From Nitrospira sp. (GTDB lineage: Bacteria; Nitrospirota; Nitrospiria; Nitrospirales; Nitrospiraceae), in the NCBI GenBank assembly GCA_029194665.1, contig JARFXO010000006.1:1-64000 (forward strand): a DNA stretch of 64,000 nt, given 5' to 3'. The notes beneath the pieces are model-generated. The model ran no database searches, was not told the DNA's origin, and saw only the letters and a list, made by a program, of their open reading frames with translations. Positions 1 to 54,220 of this stretch are shown piece after piece (position 1 is the stretch's first letter; each line of letters begins with the position of its first letter). The position numbers and the translations under genes were made by a program.

Positions 1-1393
1 TCAGGGATGTCAATTGATTGACCAAGGCCTGTCGGTCGCCTCTATGTCGTTCCAAATCCTCGGCGGCAAAAGGAAGGTCCGTTGAGATATATTTCGAGAA
101 AATGTCACGGGCAGCCGTGGCATCCGGTCGCCCCACTTTGACCTTGACGTCCAATCGACCGGCGCGAAGCACCGCGGGATCGATCAAATCCTGGCGGTTG
201 CTGGCCCCAATGACGATGACGTTACGCAATCGCTCGACCCCATCAATCTCAGAGAGAAATTGCGGAACGATCGTCGATTCGATATCCGAGGACACGCCTG
301 TCCCACGGGTTCTGAAGAGCGCATCCATCTCATCGAAAAACACGATCACCGGATGACCGTCGTCTGCCCGTTCTTTCGCCTTCTTAAACACTTCACGGAC
401 CTGACGCTCCGATTCCCCGACGTACTTATTGAGCAATTCAGGGCCCTTCACATGGAGAAAGTAGCTCCGAATTTCCTTGCCTGCCCGATGGCCTAATTTC
501 TTGGCGATCGAATTGGCGACGGCTTTGGCGATCAGCGTCTTTCCACAACCGGGTGGGCCATAGAGTAGAACCCCTTTCGGTGCGCTGAGCTTATACTCGG
601 AGAATACCTGTGGATGCAGAAACGGAAGTTCGACGGCATCGCGTACCTGCTCCAATTCTTTCTGGAGGCCTCCGATGTGTTCATAATCAACATCCGGAAC
701 CTCTTCCAACACGAGTTCTTCCGCTTCGGACTTCGGCAGCTTCTCAATGACATACCCCGAGCGAGGATCATACAACAAGTGATCCCCCACGCTCAGCCGT
801 TCAGCGAGCAACGGGTCGCCGAGCTCGGCCACCTTCTCCTCATCGAAATGGAGCGTGACCAATGCTCGCGCCCCTTCCAAGACGTCTTTGAGTCGAACCA
901 CCTCTCCCTGACTGTCGAACCCCTTGACCTCGATCACGTTGAGCGCTTCATTCAGGACGACTTCCCGTCCCTTCTGCAACTCATTGCGCTTGATCGAGGG
1001 ATGAAGGCTGACCTTCATTTTCCGTCCCGACACATAAACATTTCCGGTCCCGTCCGCATTCATACTGGAGAAAATGGCATACGCCGACGGCGGCGCTGTC
1101 AATTTTTCCACCTCGGTACGCAGCGCCTCGATTTGGGCCTTCGCTTCCTGCAGCGTGGCCACGAGTCTTTCGTTTTGCTTATTGGCTTGATCGAGTTGGT
1201 AGCGCGATTGGTAGAGTCGACGGATTTCTTCCTCCATCGACTGGATCTGAACACGAAGCTTGTCCATCTCGCGCGCATGTTCGTCGTTCTTGTGAATCAT
1301 CTCTCCATTCCCCTCAGACAGCCGCTTCGTAATCTTCTTGACAGAATCTCGGAGGGACCGGAGTCGATTTGGCTGGCCCTTATTTTCCGCCAT
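1..1393 (-). CDS. arc: Proteasome-associated AAA+ ATPase (ARC/Mpa family), 3' end outside the window
   Basis: This ring-forming ATPase recognises pupylated proteins, unfolds them and feeds them to the 20S proteasome. Reading leftwards from the ATG at 1393, the protein has an N-terminal coiled coil (about residues 15-75), then OB-fold regions (about 80-200), then the AAA+ module. Walker A GPPGCGKT lies at residues 279-286, Walker B VIVFFDEMD near 350, and the arginine-finger region FRTRG follows. The frame is open to base 1, so the C-terminus, including the proteasome-docking tail, is missing. An in-frame stop (TAG) upstream of 1393 limits the start. There is no good Shine-Dalgarno sequence. 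In relatives, dop, pup, prcBA and pafA usually lie downstream, which here would be beyond the left edge. A pup gene is found at 51.8 kb in this window. Confidence 0.93.
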   Translation of the reverse strand, partial: MAENKGQPNRLRSLRDSVKKITKRLSEGNGEMIHKNDEHAREMDKLRVQIQSMEEEIRRLYQSRYQLDQANKQNERLVATLQEAKAQIEALRTEVEKLTAPPSAYAIFSSMNADGTGNVYVSGRKMKVSLHPSIKRNELQKGREVVLNEALNVIEVKGFDSQGEVVRLKDVLEGARALVTLHFDEEKVAELGDPLLAERLSVGDHLLYDPRSGYVIEKLPKSEAEELVLEEVPDVDYEHIGGLQKELEQVRDAVELPFLHPQVFSEYKLSAPKGVLLYGPPGCGKTLIAKAVANSIAKKLGHRAGKEIRSYFLHVKGPELLNKYVGESERQVREVFKKAKERADDGHPVIVFFDEMDALFRTRGTGVSSDIESTIVPQFLSEIDGVERLRNVIVIGASNRQDLIDPAVLRAGRLDVKVKVGRPDATAARDIFSKYISTDLPFAAEDLERHRGDRQALVNQLTSL

Positions 1394-9580: not shown

Positions 9581-10375
9581 TTAACCCTCCTCCCGGCATG
9601 ATGGCGGGGTCGTCAAAAGACCTTCGCTCATCAATTCATCCAACAACTGTTGATCTTCCTTCGTGAACATCCGATCTTTCAAAAGATCGGGGCGTCGCAA
9701 ATACGTGCCGCGCAACGCTTGTTTCCGACGCCACAATCGAATGGCCTCATGATGGCCAGAAAGCAAGACATCGGGCACGCCAATTCCTCCGATTTCTGCC
9801 GGCCTCGTGTACTGTGGATACTCCAACAACGCGTCCGAAAACGACTCTTCCAATACGGAACTGGGGTCACCCAGGACGCCGGGAACGAGTCTGGCTGCTG
9901 CATCGATCAAGACGAGCGCCGGCAATTCACCTCCGGTCAACACATAATCTCCCAGTGAGACTTCCTCCGGAGCTAATGTCAGACGGACACGCTCATCCAC
10001 TCCCTCATAGTGCCCGCACAGAATGACGATTCGGCGACGCTCACCCGCCAACTCCTCTGCATAGTCTTGCGTAAAAGTCCGCCCGTGAGGAGTTGGAAAC
10101 AGCAATCGAATGTCTTCTTCGTTTGCCCGCGCTTCATTTCGAAGCGCAGCCACCGCAAGAAGGATCGGCTCAGCCTTCATGACCATGCCGGCTCCACCTC
10201 CATACGGCATATCATCGGCTACTTTGTGGCGATCAGTCGTGAAGTCCCGCAAATTGTGCACCTTCACGGTGAGAAGCCCTTTTCCCTGGCCTCGTTTGAG
10301 CATGCTGTGAGCCAGGACCGGGGCGAACATCCCAGGGAACAGTGTCAGAACCTCGAACCTCAACATGCTACTCAC
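9581..10375 (-). CDS. trmD: tRNA (guanine-37-N1)-methyltransferase TrmD
   Basis: TrmD methylates G37 next to the anticodon, preventing +1 frameshifting. The 264-residue protein begins [14 protein letters not shown] (after a short MSS extension) and contains [15 protein letters not shown] in altered form ([12 protein letters not shown]), the trefoil-knot SAM site [12 protein letters not shown] and [13 protein letters not shown], and the C-terminal RPDLL domain. Length is in the normal range (about 240-270). The first bases overlap the end of rimM by 8 bp, indicating coupled translation. Confidence 0.96.
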
Positions 10376-47709: not shown

Positions 47710-49887
47710 TCATGATCGTTCCTGCCAAGACCGAACGCGCCGTGCCGTAATGACGCCCTCTACGCGTTCGATAGTTTTCAGCACGCGATTCAGGTGAGCC
47801 GTATCGGCGATTTCGACGACAAAATCCAGCTGCGCCTTGCGGTCTTCCCGAGTGATGATTTCGGCTCGACTGATATTCGCTCTGCATTCGGCGATCGCCG
47901 AGGAGACGTTCGCCAACACTCCCGTCTTGTCCGCCGCAATGACGGTAATTTTTACCGGATGCTGACTCGGTGTGGCCGTATCCCACTCCACTTCCACCAA
48001 ACGTTCTCGATCATAATCCAAGGCTTCTAGGTTGGGACAGTCGACGGAATGGATGGTCAGACCTCTTCCACGCGTGATGTATCCCAAGATCCTGTCTCCG
48101 GGAACTGGGTTACAGCATCGCGACAGTTGCATCAACAGATCGCGCCCCCCCTTCACTTGGACGACCGGCTCCTCTCCTTTCGTACTGATGACTTTGCGGG
48201 AGCCGGCCGGCTCGGATTGAGTCGGAGCATCAGCGGACGGCAAAGCCATCAATTTTCCGAGGATTTGAGCCGTTGCGACGTTTCCAAATCCCACAGCCGC
48301 CGCTAGGTCGTCGATTGTTTCATACCCCACTTGTTTTGCAGCATCGAGAAGGGAATCAGACTTCAACACCTGCGCCGGTGCTAGACCATGACGACGTATC
48401 TCCGTCTCGAGCAAACGCCGACCGATTTCCAAGCTTCTTTTCTGTTCCTCCGCCTTGATCCAATGCTTGATCTTTGTCTTCGCCCGTGACGTGCGTACGA
48501 ACTTAAGCCAATCCTTGTGTGGAGTCTGGTTCGGCGATGTCAGAATTTCGATGGTGTCGCCACTCGTCAGTTCATGCTTGAGCGGAACGATCTTCCCGTT
48601 GACCTTCGCCCCGACACAGTGATCGCCGACTTCCGTGTGAATCGCGTAGGCGAAGTCTACCGGCTTGGCCCCTTTAGGCAATTCTTTGACGGTTCCCTTG
48701 GGCGTAAAGACATAGACCACGTCGTGGAACAATTCAAGTTTCACGGAATCCATGAATTGGCGATTGTCCGGCAGATCTTTTTGCCATTCGATGAACTGCC
48801 TCAACCATCCGAAGGCCTTACTGTCTTTATCATGCACTCTCCCCTGTTCTTTATACTTCCAATGCGCTGCGATCCCATACTCAGCCACGCGATGCATTTC
48901 TTCCGTGCGGATCTGAAACTCTACATGCTCCCCCTTCGGCCCTACCACGGTGGTATGGAGAGATTGATAGAGATTCGATTTGGGGATCGCGATGTAATCC
49001 TTGAAGCGGCCCGGCAGCGGTCGCCACAACGAATGGATGACACCCAGCAGCGCATAACAGTTCATCTTCGTATCCGTTATTATGCGCAAGGCGGTGAGAT
49101 CGTACACCTCTTCGAAGGAGATCGATTGCTTCTTCATTTTTTGGTAGATACCGTAGAGATGCTTTGGTCTCCCGTACACCCCTCCGACCAGCCCATTCTC
49201 TTTCAGAGCCCTCTCAACGAGGGCCTGCACCTCCAGGATGTATTGCTGACGATCTTCGTCGCGCTTCGCCACGCACACCCGCAGGGTTTCATAGACATCC
49301 GGCTTGAGATGTTTCAGACACAAATCTTCCAGTTCATTCTTGACCCATCCGATCCCGATGCGATTCGCCAACGGTGCATAGATTTCTACCGTCTCTAGTG
49401 CGATTTCTTGTCTTCTTTTCTCACTGAGATGTTCAAGGGTTCGCATATTATGGAGACGATCGGCCAGTTTGATGATCACGACGCGAATGTCGTCCGCCAT
49501 CGAGAGCACCATCTTGCGGAAATTTTCTGCCTGTTTTTCTTCTGAACTCTTAAAGGTGATCTTCCCGATCTTGGTCACCCCATCGACGAGATGCACGACT
49601 TCTTTCCCAAATTCACGCTGAATCTCGGCGGCCGTCGCGACCGTATCTTCCAGTGTGTCGTGTAAAAGCCCTGCCACAACCGCGGTGACGTCGGTTTTCA
49701 AGGACGTCAATACTCCAGCCACCGCCACAGGATGCCTCACATAGGGCTCTCCGGATCGACGCACTTGTCCTTCATGCACCCTCGCGGAAAACTCATAAGC
49801 CTTCCGTACCACGCCAAGATCAGCCTCAGGCTGGTAGTCTTGCAAACGAGCCAACAATTGATCGATACTCGTCACTGTTTCGTACAT
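47710..49887 (-). CDS. rsh: Bifunctional (p)ppGpp synthetase/hydrolase RelA/SpoT
   Basis: This enzyme makes and degrades the alarmone (p)ppGpp. The 725-residue protein has the HD hydrolase domain (GLLHDTLEDTVAT near 70-82, typical HDxxED), the synthetase domain (KSNLYQSLHTTVVGP, EFQIRTEEMH, EYGIAAHWKYK), the TGS domain (VFTPKGTVKELPKGAKPVDF) and a C-terminal ACT domain (ITVIAADKTGVLANVSSAIA). All domains are of normal length. The HD motif is present, so hydrolase activity is likely. It begins 3 bp after the recJ stop. Confidence 0.96.
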   Translation of the reverse strand: MYETVTSIDQLLARLQDYQPEADLGVVRKAYEFSARVHEGQVRRSGEPYVRHPVAVAGVLTSLKTDVTAVVAGLLHDTLEDTVATAAEIQREFGKEVVHLVDGVTKIGKITFKSSEEKQAENFRKMVLSMADDIRVVIIKLADRLHNMRTLEHLSEKRRQEIALETVEIYAPLANRIGIGWVKNELEDLCLKHLKPDVYETLRVCVAKRDEDRQQYILEVQALVERALKENGLVGGVYGRPKHLYGIYQKMKKQSISFEEVYDLTALRIITDTKMNCYALLGVIHSLWRPLPGRFKDYIAIPKSNLYQSLHTTVVGPKGEHVEFQIRTEEMHRVAEYGIAAHWKYKEQGRVHDKDSKAFGWLRQFIEWQKDLPDNRQFMDSVKLELFHDVVYVFTPKGTVKELPKGAKPVDFAYAIHTEVGDHCVGAKVNGKIVPLKHELTSGDTIEILTSPNQTPHKDWLKFVRTSRAKTKIKHWIKAEEQKRSLEIGRRLLETEIRRHGLAPAQVLKSDSLLDAAKQVGYETIDDLAAAVGFGNVATAQILGKLMALPSADAPTQSEPAGSRKVISTKGEEPVVQVKGGRDLLMQLSRCCNPVPGDRILGYITRGRGLTIHSVDCPNLEALDYDRERLVEVEWDTATPSQHPVKITVIAADKTGVLANVSSAIAECRANISRAEIITREDRKAQLDFVVEIADTAHLNRVLKTIERVEGVITARRVRSWQERS

Positions 49888-49890
49888 CTT

Positions 49891-51591
49891 CTATGACTCA
49901 CGACCTGCAGCCCTTATATCTCGGAGACGCAGTTGAATCCGATCATACCCGTTCCAGTGATTCAGTTCCGGCGTAAACGCGATGTCGATGGGCGTCTTGA
50001 GAGACAATCCATACTCCTCCAACGATTTCATCCCGAATCCAATACTATCAAACGGTAATGACCCTCCCTGGCGGACCGTCATCTTCAAATGCTTCTCTCC
50101 GACCATTCGAGCGTTGAGAACGTCCAAACCCTTGACGGCGAACGTCGGCTCCGGATTTCCAGCCCCGAATGGATGCAACGTCCCGATCTCCCGAATCAGC
50201 CGCAACGTGACTTCGTTCAGCAGAACTTCTGAATCCACATGCAGCACGGGAACACTGTGAGTCTCCCGGATCCATGTCTCGGCTATGGCGGAAAATCGTT
50301 CCGAAAACTCCGGCAGCCTCGCCTCATGAATCGTGATTCCAGCCGCGGTGGGATGGCCACCGAATGCCAGGAGCAGGTCTCGACAAGCGGTTAAGGCCTG
50401 ATACAAGTCGAACCCGGGAACGGTCCGAGCGGACCCTTTTCCGATACCCTGTTCATTGACGGCGATGACGACCGTCGGCCGATGGAACCGCTCCATGATC
50501 CGGGCGGCCACGATACCGACAACCCCGAGATGCCACCCTCGTGCATACAGCACGACGCCGCCAGGCCACTCGCGCGCTTCCACCTGAGCTAACGCTTCCT
50601 GTAGGATCTCGGCCTCAAGATCACGGCGGGCTCGATTCAACTGCTCCAAATCTTCAGCCAACTCTTTGGCTTCCCGTTCAGACTCGGTCGTCAGAAGTCT
50701 GACACCTTTGGTGGCCTCATCTAGTCGCCCTGCGGCATTGAGTCGGGGTCCGAGTTTAAACGCGACGGTTTCCGTCGTGCATTCACGACTGATCCCTGCG
50801 ACATGCTTCAAGGCACGTATACCGCAGCGCGCCCCTCGGGAAATCTGAGCAAGACCTTCTCGAACGAATAGTCGATTTTCATCTTGCAACGGAACCACGT
50901 CGGCAATTGTCGCAAGCGCGACCAAATCCAGTAGCGATTCCAGAGCCACCGAACCGGGGCCGTATTTTCTCTCATAGGCCTGAGCCACTTTGTACGCCAA
51001 CCCTCCGGAACAAAGCCCGTGAAAGGGATACCGCGCTTCGGATCGATGGGGATTCATCACTGCCAAGGCCGGCGGCATTTCTCTATCGCTTTGATGGTGG
51101 TCGGTCACGACGACATCGATTCCCAATTGATTGGCAAAGCTAATCTCACGGTGCGATGTGGTCCCACAATCGGACGTCACCAATAAAGAGACGCCCTCCT
51201 GCGCCAACCTCCGAACAGCATTTTCATTGAGTCCATATCCTTCACGAAGACGATGAGGAACATAGGCCCGGACTTCGGCGTCGAGTCCGCGGAAAAATGA
51301 AAGATAAATACTCGTCGCGGACATGCCGTCCACATCATAATCGCCGTAAAAACAGACGACCTCACGCCGTTGCGTGGCCTGATACAGACGGTCAACCGCC
51401 CGTTCCATATCGGGAATCAAGAAAGGATCATGGGTTTGGAGATGCGACAGCCAGGCTGTCGCCTGGTCCACGTTCGTGACACCCCGATTGAGCAACAACG
51501 AGGCAGTCACCGATGAGATGGATAACGCTTGTGATAAGAGACCCCGTTGAATGGGATCGACCTGGCGAACGACCCAACGCTTAGACTTCAT
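49891..51591 (-). CDS. recJ: Single-stranded-DNA-specific exonuclease RecJ
   Basis: RecJ is the 5'-3' single-strand exonuclease of recombination and mismatch repair. From 51591 the protein has 566 residues: the DHH motifs FYGDYDVDGMSAT, VVTDHHQSD, GLCSGGLAYKVAQ and LGPRLNAAGRL, then DHHA1 (VGIVAARIMERFHRP, GKGSARTVPGFDL, GGHPTAAGITI) and a C-terminal OB domain. ATG at 51591 is preferred because AAGGAG lies 6-8 bases upstream; the frame extends to 51642. It is followed immediately by the relA gene. Confidence 0.95.
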   Translation of the reverse strand: MKSKRWVVRQVDPIQRGLLSQALSISSVTASLLLNRGVTNVDQATAWLSHLQTHDPFLIPDMERAVDRLYQATQRREVVCFYGDYDVDGMSATSIYLSFFRGLDAEVRAYVPHRLREGYGLNENAVRRLAQEGVSLLVTSDCGTTSHREISFANQLGIDVVVTDHHQSDREMPPALAVMNPHRSEARYPFHGLCSGGLAYKVAQAYERKYGPGSVALESLLDLVALATIADVVPLQDENRLFVREGLAQISRGARCGIRALKHVAGISRECTTETVAFKLGPRLNAAGRLDEATKGVRLLTTESEREAKELAEDLEQLNRARRDLEAEILQEALAQVEAREWPGGVVLYARGWHLGVVGIVAARIMERFHRPTVVIAVNEQGIGKGSARTVPGFDLYQALTACRDLLLAFGGHPTAAGITIHEARLPEFSERFSAIAETWIRETHSVPVLHVDSEVLLNEVTLRLIREIGTLHPFGAGNPEPTFAVKGLDVLNARMVGEKHLKMTVRQGGSLPFDSIGFGMKSLEEYGLSLKTPIDIAFTPELNHWNGYDRIQLRLRDIRAAGRES

Positions 51592-51747
51592 CCGCGTCTC
51601 CTTAAGAGGCTGCGCCGTGTCACAATACAGACCACGGATCACAAAGGAACGAGGCAGACTGTAATAAGCCGCTTCTGCTTTGTCAAACCGATGACCTTGT
51701 GGAAAGAGTCGGACGAATCGAGTGGGAGTGGGGAGTTGGAACCGGTG

Positions 51748-51945
51748 TTATTCTCCTCCTTTTTGCACGTAGTTTTTCACAAATTCTTCGGCGTTCTTTT
51801 CAAGGACGTCATCAATTTCATCGACCAGCTTATCGATGTCTTCCTTGATCTTCTTGCCGGCTTCGACAACCTTGGGATTCGCCTTAACTTCTTCCTTACC
51901 TTGCGGCTCTCGTCTGGTTTCCTGTTTTCGCTCTTGTTTTTCCAT
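51748..51945 (-). CDS. pup: Prokaryotic ubiquitin-like protein Pup, ending in Gly-Gly-Glu
   Basis: Pup is attached to lysines of target proteins by PafA through its C-terminal Glu side chain and is read by the proteasomal ATPase. The 65-residue protein has the disordered charged N-terminus (MEKQERKQETRREPQGKEE) and the C-terminal helix region conserved in actinobacterial Pup: LVDEIDDVLEKNAEEF and VKNYVQKGGE. The last residue is Glu (codon GAA before TAA), not the Gln found in mycobacteria, so no deamidation by Dop is needed to activate it. GGGAGG lies 8 bases upstream. The gene lies between recJ and hppA, not in a proteasome cluster, and the ATPase gene is at the left window edge. Confidence 0.93.
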   Translation of the reverse strand: MEKQERKQETRREPQGKEEVKANPKVVEAGKKIKEDIDKLVDEIDDVLEKNAEEFVKNYVQKGGE

Positions 51946-52165
51946 CCGAGCACCTCCCGGTAAACAAGGACAGGTTTAATTAACCTTACTCCAGCACTCG
52001 TAAAACCGTCAAGCTGACGTAAAAACCAGGAGATGACTCCCGTCAAGAAGAAGAGCCGTTTCCTGGCTTCAGAAACCGAGTGAGTAAGACCGCTCGATCG
52101 TGAAGAGAGCGTGAGCAACCCTCCTCATGGTGCGAACAACGGGCCGCGAGATACGAGAACTGCCA

Positions 52166-54220
52166 TCAGACAATGAGCGAGATAATAAGCAACGCCACGA
52201 TATTAATCACCTTGATCATCGGATTCACGGCAGGACCAGCTGTGTCCTTATACGGATCACCGACCGTATCACCGGTGACCGCCGCCTTGTGTGTCTCGCT
52301 CCCCTTCTTGCCCTGCTCTTCGATAAACTTCTTGGCGTTGTCCCAGGCGCCACCACCGCTCGTCATGGAAATCGCGACGAACAAACCGGTCACGATGCTG
52401 CCCACGAGCACCCCTCCCAGCGCCTGAGGGCCAAGGATCACTCCTATCAAGAGAGGCGAGACCACCGGAATCAATCCCGGGATCATCATCTTCTGGATCG
52501 CCGCCTGCGTCACGATATCCACACAAGTTCCATATTCCGGCTTACCGGTCCCCTCCATAATGCCCTTGATCGTCCGAAATTGGCGCCGAACCTCCTCGAC
52601 GATCAAACCACCGGCTTGCCCGACCGCCTTCATACAGAGTGCGCCGAAAATAAACGGCAACATACCGCCGAGGAACAGCCCCACTAAGACTTTTGGATTG
52701 GAAAGATCAAATGCAGCCAGTGAGGGATTGCGGGCTGCGACCTCGCGGGAATATTCCGCGAACAGCACGACCGCCGCCAAACCAGCGGACCCGATCGCAT
52801 AGCCCTTTGTGACCGCCTTGGTCGTATTGCCGACCGCATCCAATGGATCCGTGATATCCCTGACTTCCTTACCGAGGTGCGACATTTCGGCGATGCCACC
52901 GGCATTATCAGTGATCGGGCCGAAGGCATCGATCGCAACCACAATCCCTGCCATCGAGAGCATGGACACCGCTGCGACGGCAACACCATACAGCCCACTG
53001 GATTCCGCTCCCCCGCAAATCCAATAACTGCCGAGAATTGCCAGGGCAATCACCACTACGGGAGCTGCAGTCGCCTGCATACCCACCGCCAAACCTGCGA
53101 TAATATTTGTCGCATGGCCGGTTTCGCTCGCCTTGGCGATGTACTTCACCGGCTCATAACTCTTGGACGTGTAATAATCCGTGATAAACACAAGCGCTAA
53201 TGTCACGGCCAAGCCCAGCAGTGCTGCAATGTAATAGCTGAATCCGCTGACACCGCCTACTCCACCCATGATCATGAAGGTGAACGGTAAAAACGCCAAA
53301 GCCGCAATTCCACCGGCCACAAACAACCCTTTGTACAGCGCCGGCATGATTTCCCCGTCTGGACCGACCTTGACATAGAGGATACCGACGATCGTGGCAA
53401 AGATGGTGATACCACCCAAGGCCAACGGATACAGAATAGGGGCAGTCGCCCCCTTAAACATCGTGAAGGCCAACACCATGGCCGCCACGGTCGTCACAGC
53501 ATAGGTTTCAAACAAGTCTGCCGCCATGCCGGCGCAATCACCCACATTGTCACCCACGTTATCTGCGATCACGGCGGGATTTCTTGGATCATCTTCGGGA
53601 ATCCCTGCTTCTACTTTGCCGACCAAGTCGGCACCGACATCCGCCGCCTTCGTATAAATACCGCCACCGACGCGTGCAAAGACGGAAATCAGACTGCCAC
53701 CGAATCCAAGACTGAGCAACGCGTGAATGGCTTTTTCCTGTCCTGCCATTGATACTGCAATGGTGTAGAACCCGGTAATAGCCAGAAGTCCGAGGCCGAT
53801 CAGCAGCAAGCCGGTTACAGCTCCACCGCGGAAGGCAACGACCAAGGCGGCATTCATGCCGTCATGTGCAGCTTGAGCCGTCCGCACATTGGCGCGCACC
53901 GCGATAATCATGCCCACGTAGCCGGCAAGGGCCGAGGCTCCGGCGCCGACCAAGAATCCGGCCGCAGTGATCAGACCAAATTTATCCGACAGGGCTCCGG
54001 CCGCCCACAGGATGACGAACAGGCCCGCGGCGACATACCCAACGGTCTTGTATTGTCGATTCATGTAGGCACTGGCACCCTCTTGAATGGCTTTTGCAAT
54101 TTCCTGCATCTTGGCATTGCCGGCGTCGAGCTTGAACACCCACATCGCCAGGTACAGCCCATAGGCAATGCCGGCCACGGCCGCTATGAGAGCAAACGTT
54201 ACAATCGCTGAGTCACTCAC
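52166..54220 (-). CDS. hppA: Membrane-bound proton-pumping pyrophosphatase, K+-independent type
   Basis: HppA couples pyrophosphate hydrolysis to H+ transport. The 684-residue protein has about 16 membrane segments and the signature loops: [20 protein letters not shown] with [23 protein letters not shown] (acidic motif), [17 protein letters not shown] and the C-terminal [20 protein letters not shown]. At the subtype site the sequence is [10 protein letters not shown]: Lys (not Ala) after GNTT marks the K+-independent subfamily. Start is GTG at 54220 with AGGAGG upstream. The gene stands alone with no obvious terminator. Confidence 0.96.

Follow-up and report, generated by a model that had tools for sequence, protein, structure and literature searches.

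Introduction

The position of pup next to dop or pafA has been described as invariable (PMC2588565, PMC3511204), and the gene order of the Pup system has been called rigidly conserved (PMC3511204, 2012). In Mycobacterium tuberculosis, pup (Rv2111c) lies directly upstream of prcB and codes for a protein ending in Gln; Corynebacterium glutamicum has no prcBA, harbors pup directly before pafA, and possesses a Glu-ending Pup together with a retained Dop, which acts as a depupylase (PMC3511204). Leptospirillum has been described as carrying the system twice, with the genes in their standard arrangement (PMC3511204).

The pup gene analyzed in this work belongs to a Nitrospira genome (G000; 4.8 Mb, 17 contigs, 99.5% complete) and is embedded in a window of 64,000 nucleotides, corresponding to bases 1–64000 of contig C6. 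Its product resembles M. tuberculosis Pup (3m91, 3m9d) in length, unstructured N-terminal half, C-terminal coiled-coil stretch, and GG-x tail, but it ends in an encoded Glu and its gene is far from prcB. It shares with C. glutamicum the encoded GGE end and, judging from the relatives, a Dop kept though deamidation is unneeded; Nitrospira, however, possesses a 20S set, and its pup lies at a distance. The Pup systems of the other Nitrospirota and of Leptospirillum comprise the same enzymes, with Dop and PafA vertically related to those of Nitrospirales according to the phylogenetic tree; unlike in Nitrospirales, pup is flanked by dop and prcB in the other Nitrospirota checked. Lastly, the UBact system (NF033388) relies on the same enzyme families and on a tag that in this genome also ends in Gly-Glu, but this tag represents another family, and its gene, at a locus of its own on contig C4, is still located between dop and prcB.

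Identification of the pup Gene

The window ORF (Table 1) matched the Pfam Pup family (PF05639) with 77.2 bits (cut-off 27; E-value 1.9e-21) and TIGR03687 with 60.9 bits (cut-off 41.45), the latter being the only NCBIfam model retrieved; the UBact model NF033388 gave no match in this NCBIfam profile search. The 38 C-terminal residues (28–65) align with M. tuberculosis Pup (3m91, chain B; E-value 7.6e-11) and, by sequence only, correspond to the region that forms a coiled coil with Mpa. The protein falls in the size range of Pup (60–70 residues) and carries one of its two possible ends (Gly-Gly-Glu or Gly-Gly-Gln), the final codon being GAA (Glu). The original prediction had described a Pup-like C-terminal helix and tail, a Glu as the last encoded residue, and a position between recJ and hppA about 50 kb from the ATPase gene (the distance is ~50.5 kb), all of which these data bear out. 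The Pup sequence is also strongly conserved across the order. Judging from these matches, the ORF is a genuine Pup and only the arrangement of its locus departs from the standard, since it adjoins neither dop and prcB nor pafA.

Table 1. Features of the window related to pup and its surroundings.
Feature	Position	Strand	Remarks
Proteasomal ATPase, Pup system (Mpa/ARC type)	2..1393	-	truncated at its 3' end, where the contig stops
rel (RelA/SpoT-type)	47710..49887	-	after recJ; name presumed from general family knowledge
recJ	49891..51642	-	downstream neighbor of pup
recJ promoter-like site	51658..51686	-	TTGACA, 17-nt spacer, TACAGT; in the pup–recJ interval
pup	51748..51945	-	65 aa, ATG start; protein MEKQERKQETRREPQGKEEVKANPKVVEAGKKIKEDIDKLVDEIDDVLEKNAEEFVKNYVQKGGE; ends QKGGE
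Shine-Dalgarno-like GGGAGG	51953..51958	-	precedes the pup ATG; GGAGGTGCTCG identical in all 9 species of the alignment
pup promoter-like site	51983..52012	-	TTGACG, 18-nt spacer, TAAGGT; sigma-70-like
hppA, membrane pyrophosphatase	52166..54220	-	upstream neighbor of pup in the whole family and in most of the remaining genomes of the order; name from the original prediction and general family knowledge

The Enzyme Cluster and the UBact Locus

The left edge of the window coincides with the contig end and falls inside the ATPase gene, whose product matches TIGR03689 (589.6 bits; cut-off 504.75) and which is collinear with the complete loci L041, L044, and L045. The left end of contig C7 starts inside prcA, followed by pafA; the PafA sequence matched TIGR03686 (560 bits; cut-off 551) and aligned with C. 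glutamicum PafA (4b0t; E-value 7e-115), including its Y-x-D-x-G-x-H-P-E-Y stretch. A cognate ligase is thus encoded in the same genome as the Pup of the window, and the PafA homologue on which the original prediction had staked itself is present. The ends of C6 (minus strand) and C7 (plus strand) line up with the intact cluster found in the relatives, thiE-ATPase-[dop-prcB]-prcA-pafA, leaving an unassembled gap of ~2.8 kb, or 3.2 kb if estimated from G063, the nearest relative, in which this region contains an insert.

A genome search retrieved three Dop/PafA-type genes and four proteasome-fold genes, of which the copy on contig C1 is probably hslV; the dop and prcB genes of the Pup system are absent from the assembly, their place corresponding to the C6–C7 gap, and no other Pup was found in the assembly. 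The suggestion to look beyond base 1 for the remaining genes led to contig C7, with pafA preceded by the end of prcA, but neither to dop and prcB nor to another pup. Of the standard enzyme set, the ATPase (cut), PrcA (cut), and PafA were found in this genome and the full set in its complete relatives, from which we infer dop, prcB, and the existence of the genome's own cluster. In G063, a palindromic, MITE-like insert of ~385 bp was recognized by eye between dop and prcB (L044:4361–4768); an insert of this type may explain the assembly break at the same place in the genome under study.

The same genome harbors a complete UBact-proteasome locus (ATPase-dop-UBact-prcB-prcA-ligase; L009:7054–13793, contig C4). 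The tag of this cluster, considered as a possible Pup, was rejected, as it matches the UBact model NF033388 with 76 bits; it ends in RTGE. Comparing the lists of the 79 genomes of the genus, UBact is present in 66, Pup in 74, and both in about 63, so that the coexistence of the two tags is the usual state in the genus.

Organization of the Pup System in Nitrospirales

A single pup copy is harbored by 72 of the 79 genomes of the genus, while two have two copies (G021 and G053) and five have none. In the genomes possessing pup and the ATPase gene on one contig, the distance read from the coordinates is 41–60 kb, with pup upstream on the same strand (25 other genomes of the genus, besides that of the window). 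The five relatives with complete or nearly complete genomes (G001, G003, G040, G063, and G064) have an uninterrupted ATPase-dop-prcB-prcA-pafA cluster with no pup within it and exactly one pup elsewhere. In the other genera of the order, pup and the ATPase gene are separated by 45 kb to 1.4 Mb, e.g., 46 kb in G213, 129 kb in G206, 213 kb in G128, 863 kb (on opposite strands) in G266, and ~1.4 Mb in G302, G356, and G202.

In all the checked genomes of the order (families f1–f4), pup is apart from the ATPase-dop-prcB-prcA-pafA cluster, where dop abuts prcB: the dop–prcB gap ranges from -23 to 95 nt and contains no pup in 16 genomes, with one exception of 408 nt (G063), which gave no Pup match. 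The gap measures 186–290 nt and includes pup in nine genomes that belong to other orders and classes. The named records give the same picture, since pup is accompanied by recJ and/or hppA in Nitrospira and Nitrospirales MAGs, with none of the enzymes of the system within 6.5 kb of it, and the dop-pup-prcB order occurs in a Troglogloeales MAG, other Nitrospirae, Acidimicrobiia, and most actinomycetes. The split locus is therefore a fixed trait of the order rather than an oddity of one genome; the arrangement is unusual, as originally stated, with respect to the standard locus, but it is not peculiar to this genome.

Throughout the order, pup adjoins recJ and/or rel, the commonest order being hppA-pup-recJ-rel. 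Where the genomes of the family could be read that far, hppA and recJ almost always flank pup; an exception is L087, in which no match to recJ was obtained and pup is followed by rel. In the other families of the order, pup adjoins recJ and/or hppA, except for genus g20, where it is next to rel with no recJ between, and for G339, where rel follows as well. The outgroup orders possess the recJ-rel pair with neither pup nor hppA before it within the ~1.5 kb read. The idea that pup landed between the members of an old hppA-recJ pair is thus unsupported.

Divergent Pup sequences were also retrieved: that of L139 (G239) contains NNVQKGGE and an insertion within the helix (ALGENAVKENAAEF), and that of L140 (G384) gave a weak match only. 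Outside Nitrospirota, pup is also detached from the enzymes, at another site, in two Methylomirabilota loci (L177 and L178, at about position 10001); in L178 it follows ORFs resembling folE and moaB. No promoter-like site was found at these two detached genes, which probably represent an independent relocation. In a MAG labelled Patescibacteria (L201, at about position 10001), a pup-like gene with a promoter-like site lies beside recJ on the opposite strand; no Dop or PafA was found in this genome record, and the contig is possibly foreign.

Promoter-like Sites Upstream of the Moved pup

The multialignment of nine species revealed that the CTTGACGG box and the second hexamer (TAnGGT) of the promoter-like site upstream of pup are conserved, and that GTTTGACAAAG is invariant in the site preceding recJ. 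We then searched up to 130 nt upstream of pup for the pattern TTGACN-N15-19-TANNNT, according to its match to the consensus. It was found in 72 out of 77 pup genes of the order, vs. 0.26% in shuffled sequences; in none of 30 unmoved Nitrospirota pup genes, where most of those 130 nt are dop coding sequence and its absence is expected; and in one of 48 loci from other phyla, i.e., L201, itself a detached pup. On account of this conserved putative promoter, the moved pup resembles an independent transcription unit, and a promoter of its own would change the control of pupylation.

Origin of the Relocation and C-terminal Residue of Pup

In the tree constructed with Dop and PafA, all the split genomes form one clade nested among unsplit Nitrospirota, with a support of 100 for families f1–f3 and of 37 when f4 is added; despite the latter value, f4 shares the pup neighborhood with the rest of the order. 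The simplest reading of these sequence data would be a single relocation of pup at the base of the order, followed by vertical inheritance. A relocation through the import of foreign enzymes is unsupported, in that Dop and PafA nest within Nitrospirota.

According to a manual count of the sequences, the ratio of Glu to Gln endings is ~74:8 in moved vs. ~24:4 in unmoved Nitrospirota pup genes; about nine in ten sampled Pup sequences of the phylum thus end in Glu, whether moved or not. The Gln endings are scattered among the moved genes (e.g., G004, G328, G367, G288, G405, G292, G198, and G202), appear sporadically even within the genus (G004 and L029), and occur among the unmoved ones in g63 and f14. 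A connection between the Glu ending and the relocation was therefore rejected: this ending is ordinary, being the majority state of the phylum, and unrelated to the move. The statement that Glu spares the deamidation by Dop holds for this step alone; Dop is still encoded in the relatives, and the need for a depupylase remains.

Discussion

In our opinion, it is highly probable that the genome has an ordinary Pup-proteasome system with the window ORF as its single pup, and that this gene, in the ancestor of the order, left the dop–prcB site for the side of recJ-rel, under a sigma-70-like promoter of its own, the enzymes having stayed clustered. According to this model, pup would have left its place between dop and prcB and landed beside recJ-rel, and the ATPase, Dop, PrcB, PrcA, and PafA genes would have remained one cluster elsewhere. 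Pup would be ready for ligation as made, because it already ends in Glu; PafA would link its gamma-carboxylate to lysines, the ATPase would feed the tagged proteins into PrcBA, and Dop would be responsible for depupylation, deamidation being needed only in the few species with a Gln-ending Pup. The supply of the tag would thereby be uncoupled in transcription from its enzymes.

The original prediction had offered two alternatives, a split pupylation locus and an additional pup away from the usual cluster. The former stands, whereas the latter would require a standard pup inside the C6–C7 gap, and this gap covers exactly the usual position of the gene; yet the remainder of the ATPase gene, dop, prcB, and the start of prcA take up the whole of its expected length, and the intact pup-free clusters of the five relatives, each with its one pup elsewhere, together with the lack of another Pup in the assembly, render an extra copy very improbable. 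It is equally hard to credit that the ORF codes for a tag of the UBact system or for a decayed Pup devoid of a partner ligase: the complete UBact locus, with two Dop/PafA-like enzymes, lends itself to such a reading, but it has its own UBact gene, while the window ORF matches Pup models only, a true Pup-type PafA is present, and the Pup sequence is conserved in the whole order.

A different explanation for the new position is that pup joined recJ-rel through co-regulation (stringent response, starvation), so that the tag supply would follow ppGpp or DNA stress. The association of pup with recJ and/or rel through the order agrees with it, as does the importance of the Pup system under nitrogen starvation in mycobacteria (PMC7947786). 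We regard this explanation as unlikely, though less so than the two above, given that the pup–recJ interval holds a conserved promoter-like site of its own and co-transcription is not required, that pup is beside rel without an intervening recJ in g20, and that a shared neighborhood alone does not prove shared control.

Coming back to the relocated single pup, we found no description of a detached pup in Nitrospira in the literature covered, from which most subscription papers and the primary UBact reports were absent; priority is thus uncertain. The detached pup is a new arrangement of a known system, within this limit of priority. A whole order breaks the published adjacency rule, and gene adjacency is used to find Pup systems; neighborhood-based searches would therefore wrongly call Nitrospira Pup-less. 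The order would also offer a natural case of a tag and its enzymes under separate control. It is conceivable, although we propose it only tentatively and would sooner expect otherwise, that Nitrospirales separated the tag gene for good from those of its enzymes and put it under a promoter of its own, so that the level of pupylation would be set by the quantity of Pup and not by that of the ligase, in cells usually also running UBact. The usual presence of Pup and UBact in one genome would make an exchange or a division of labor between two bacterial tags testable in one cell.
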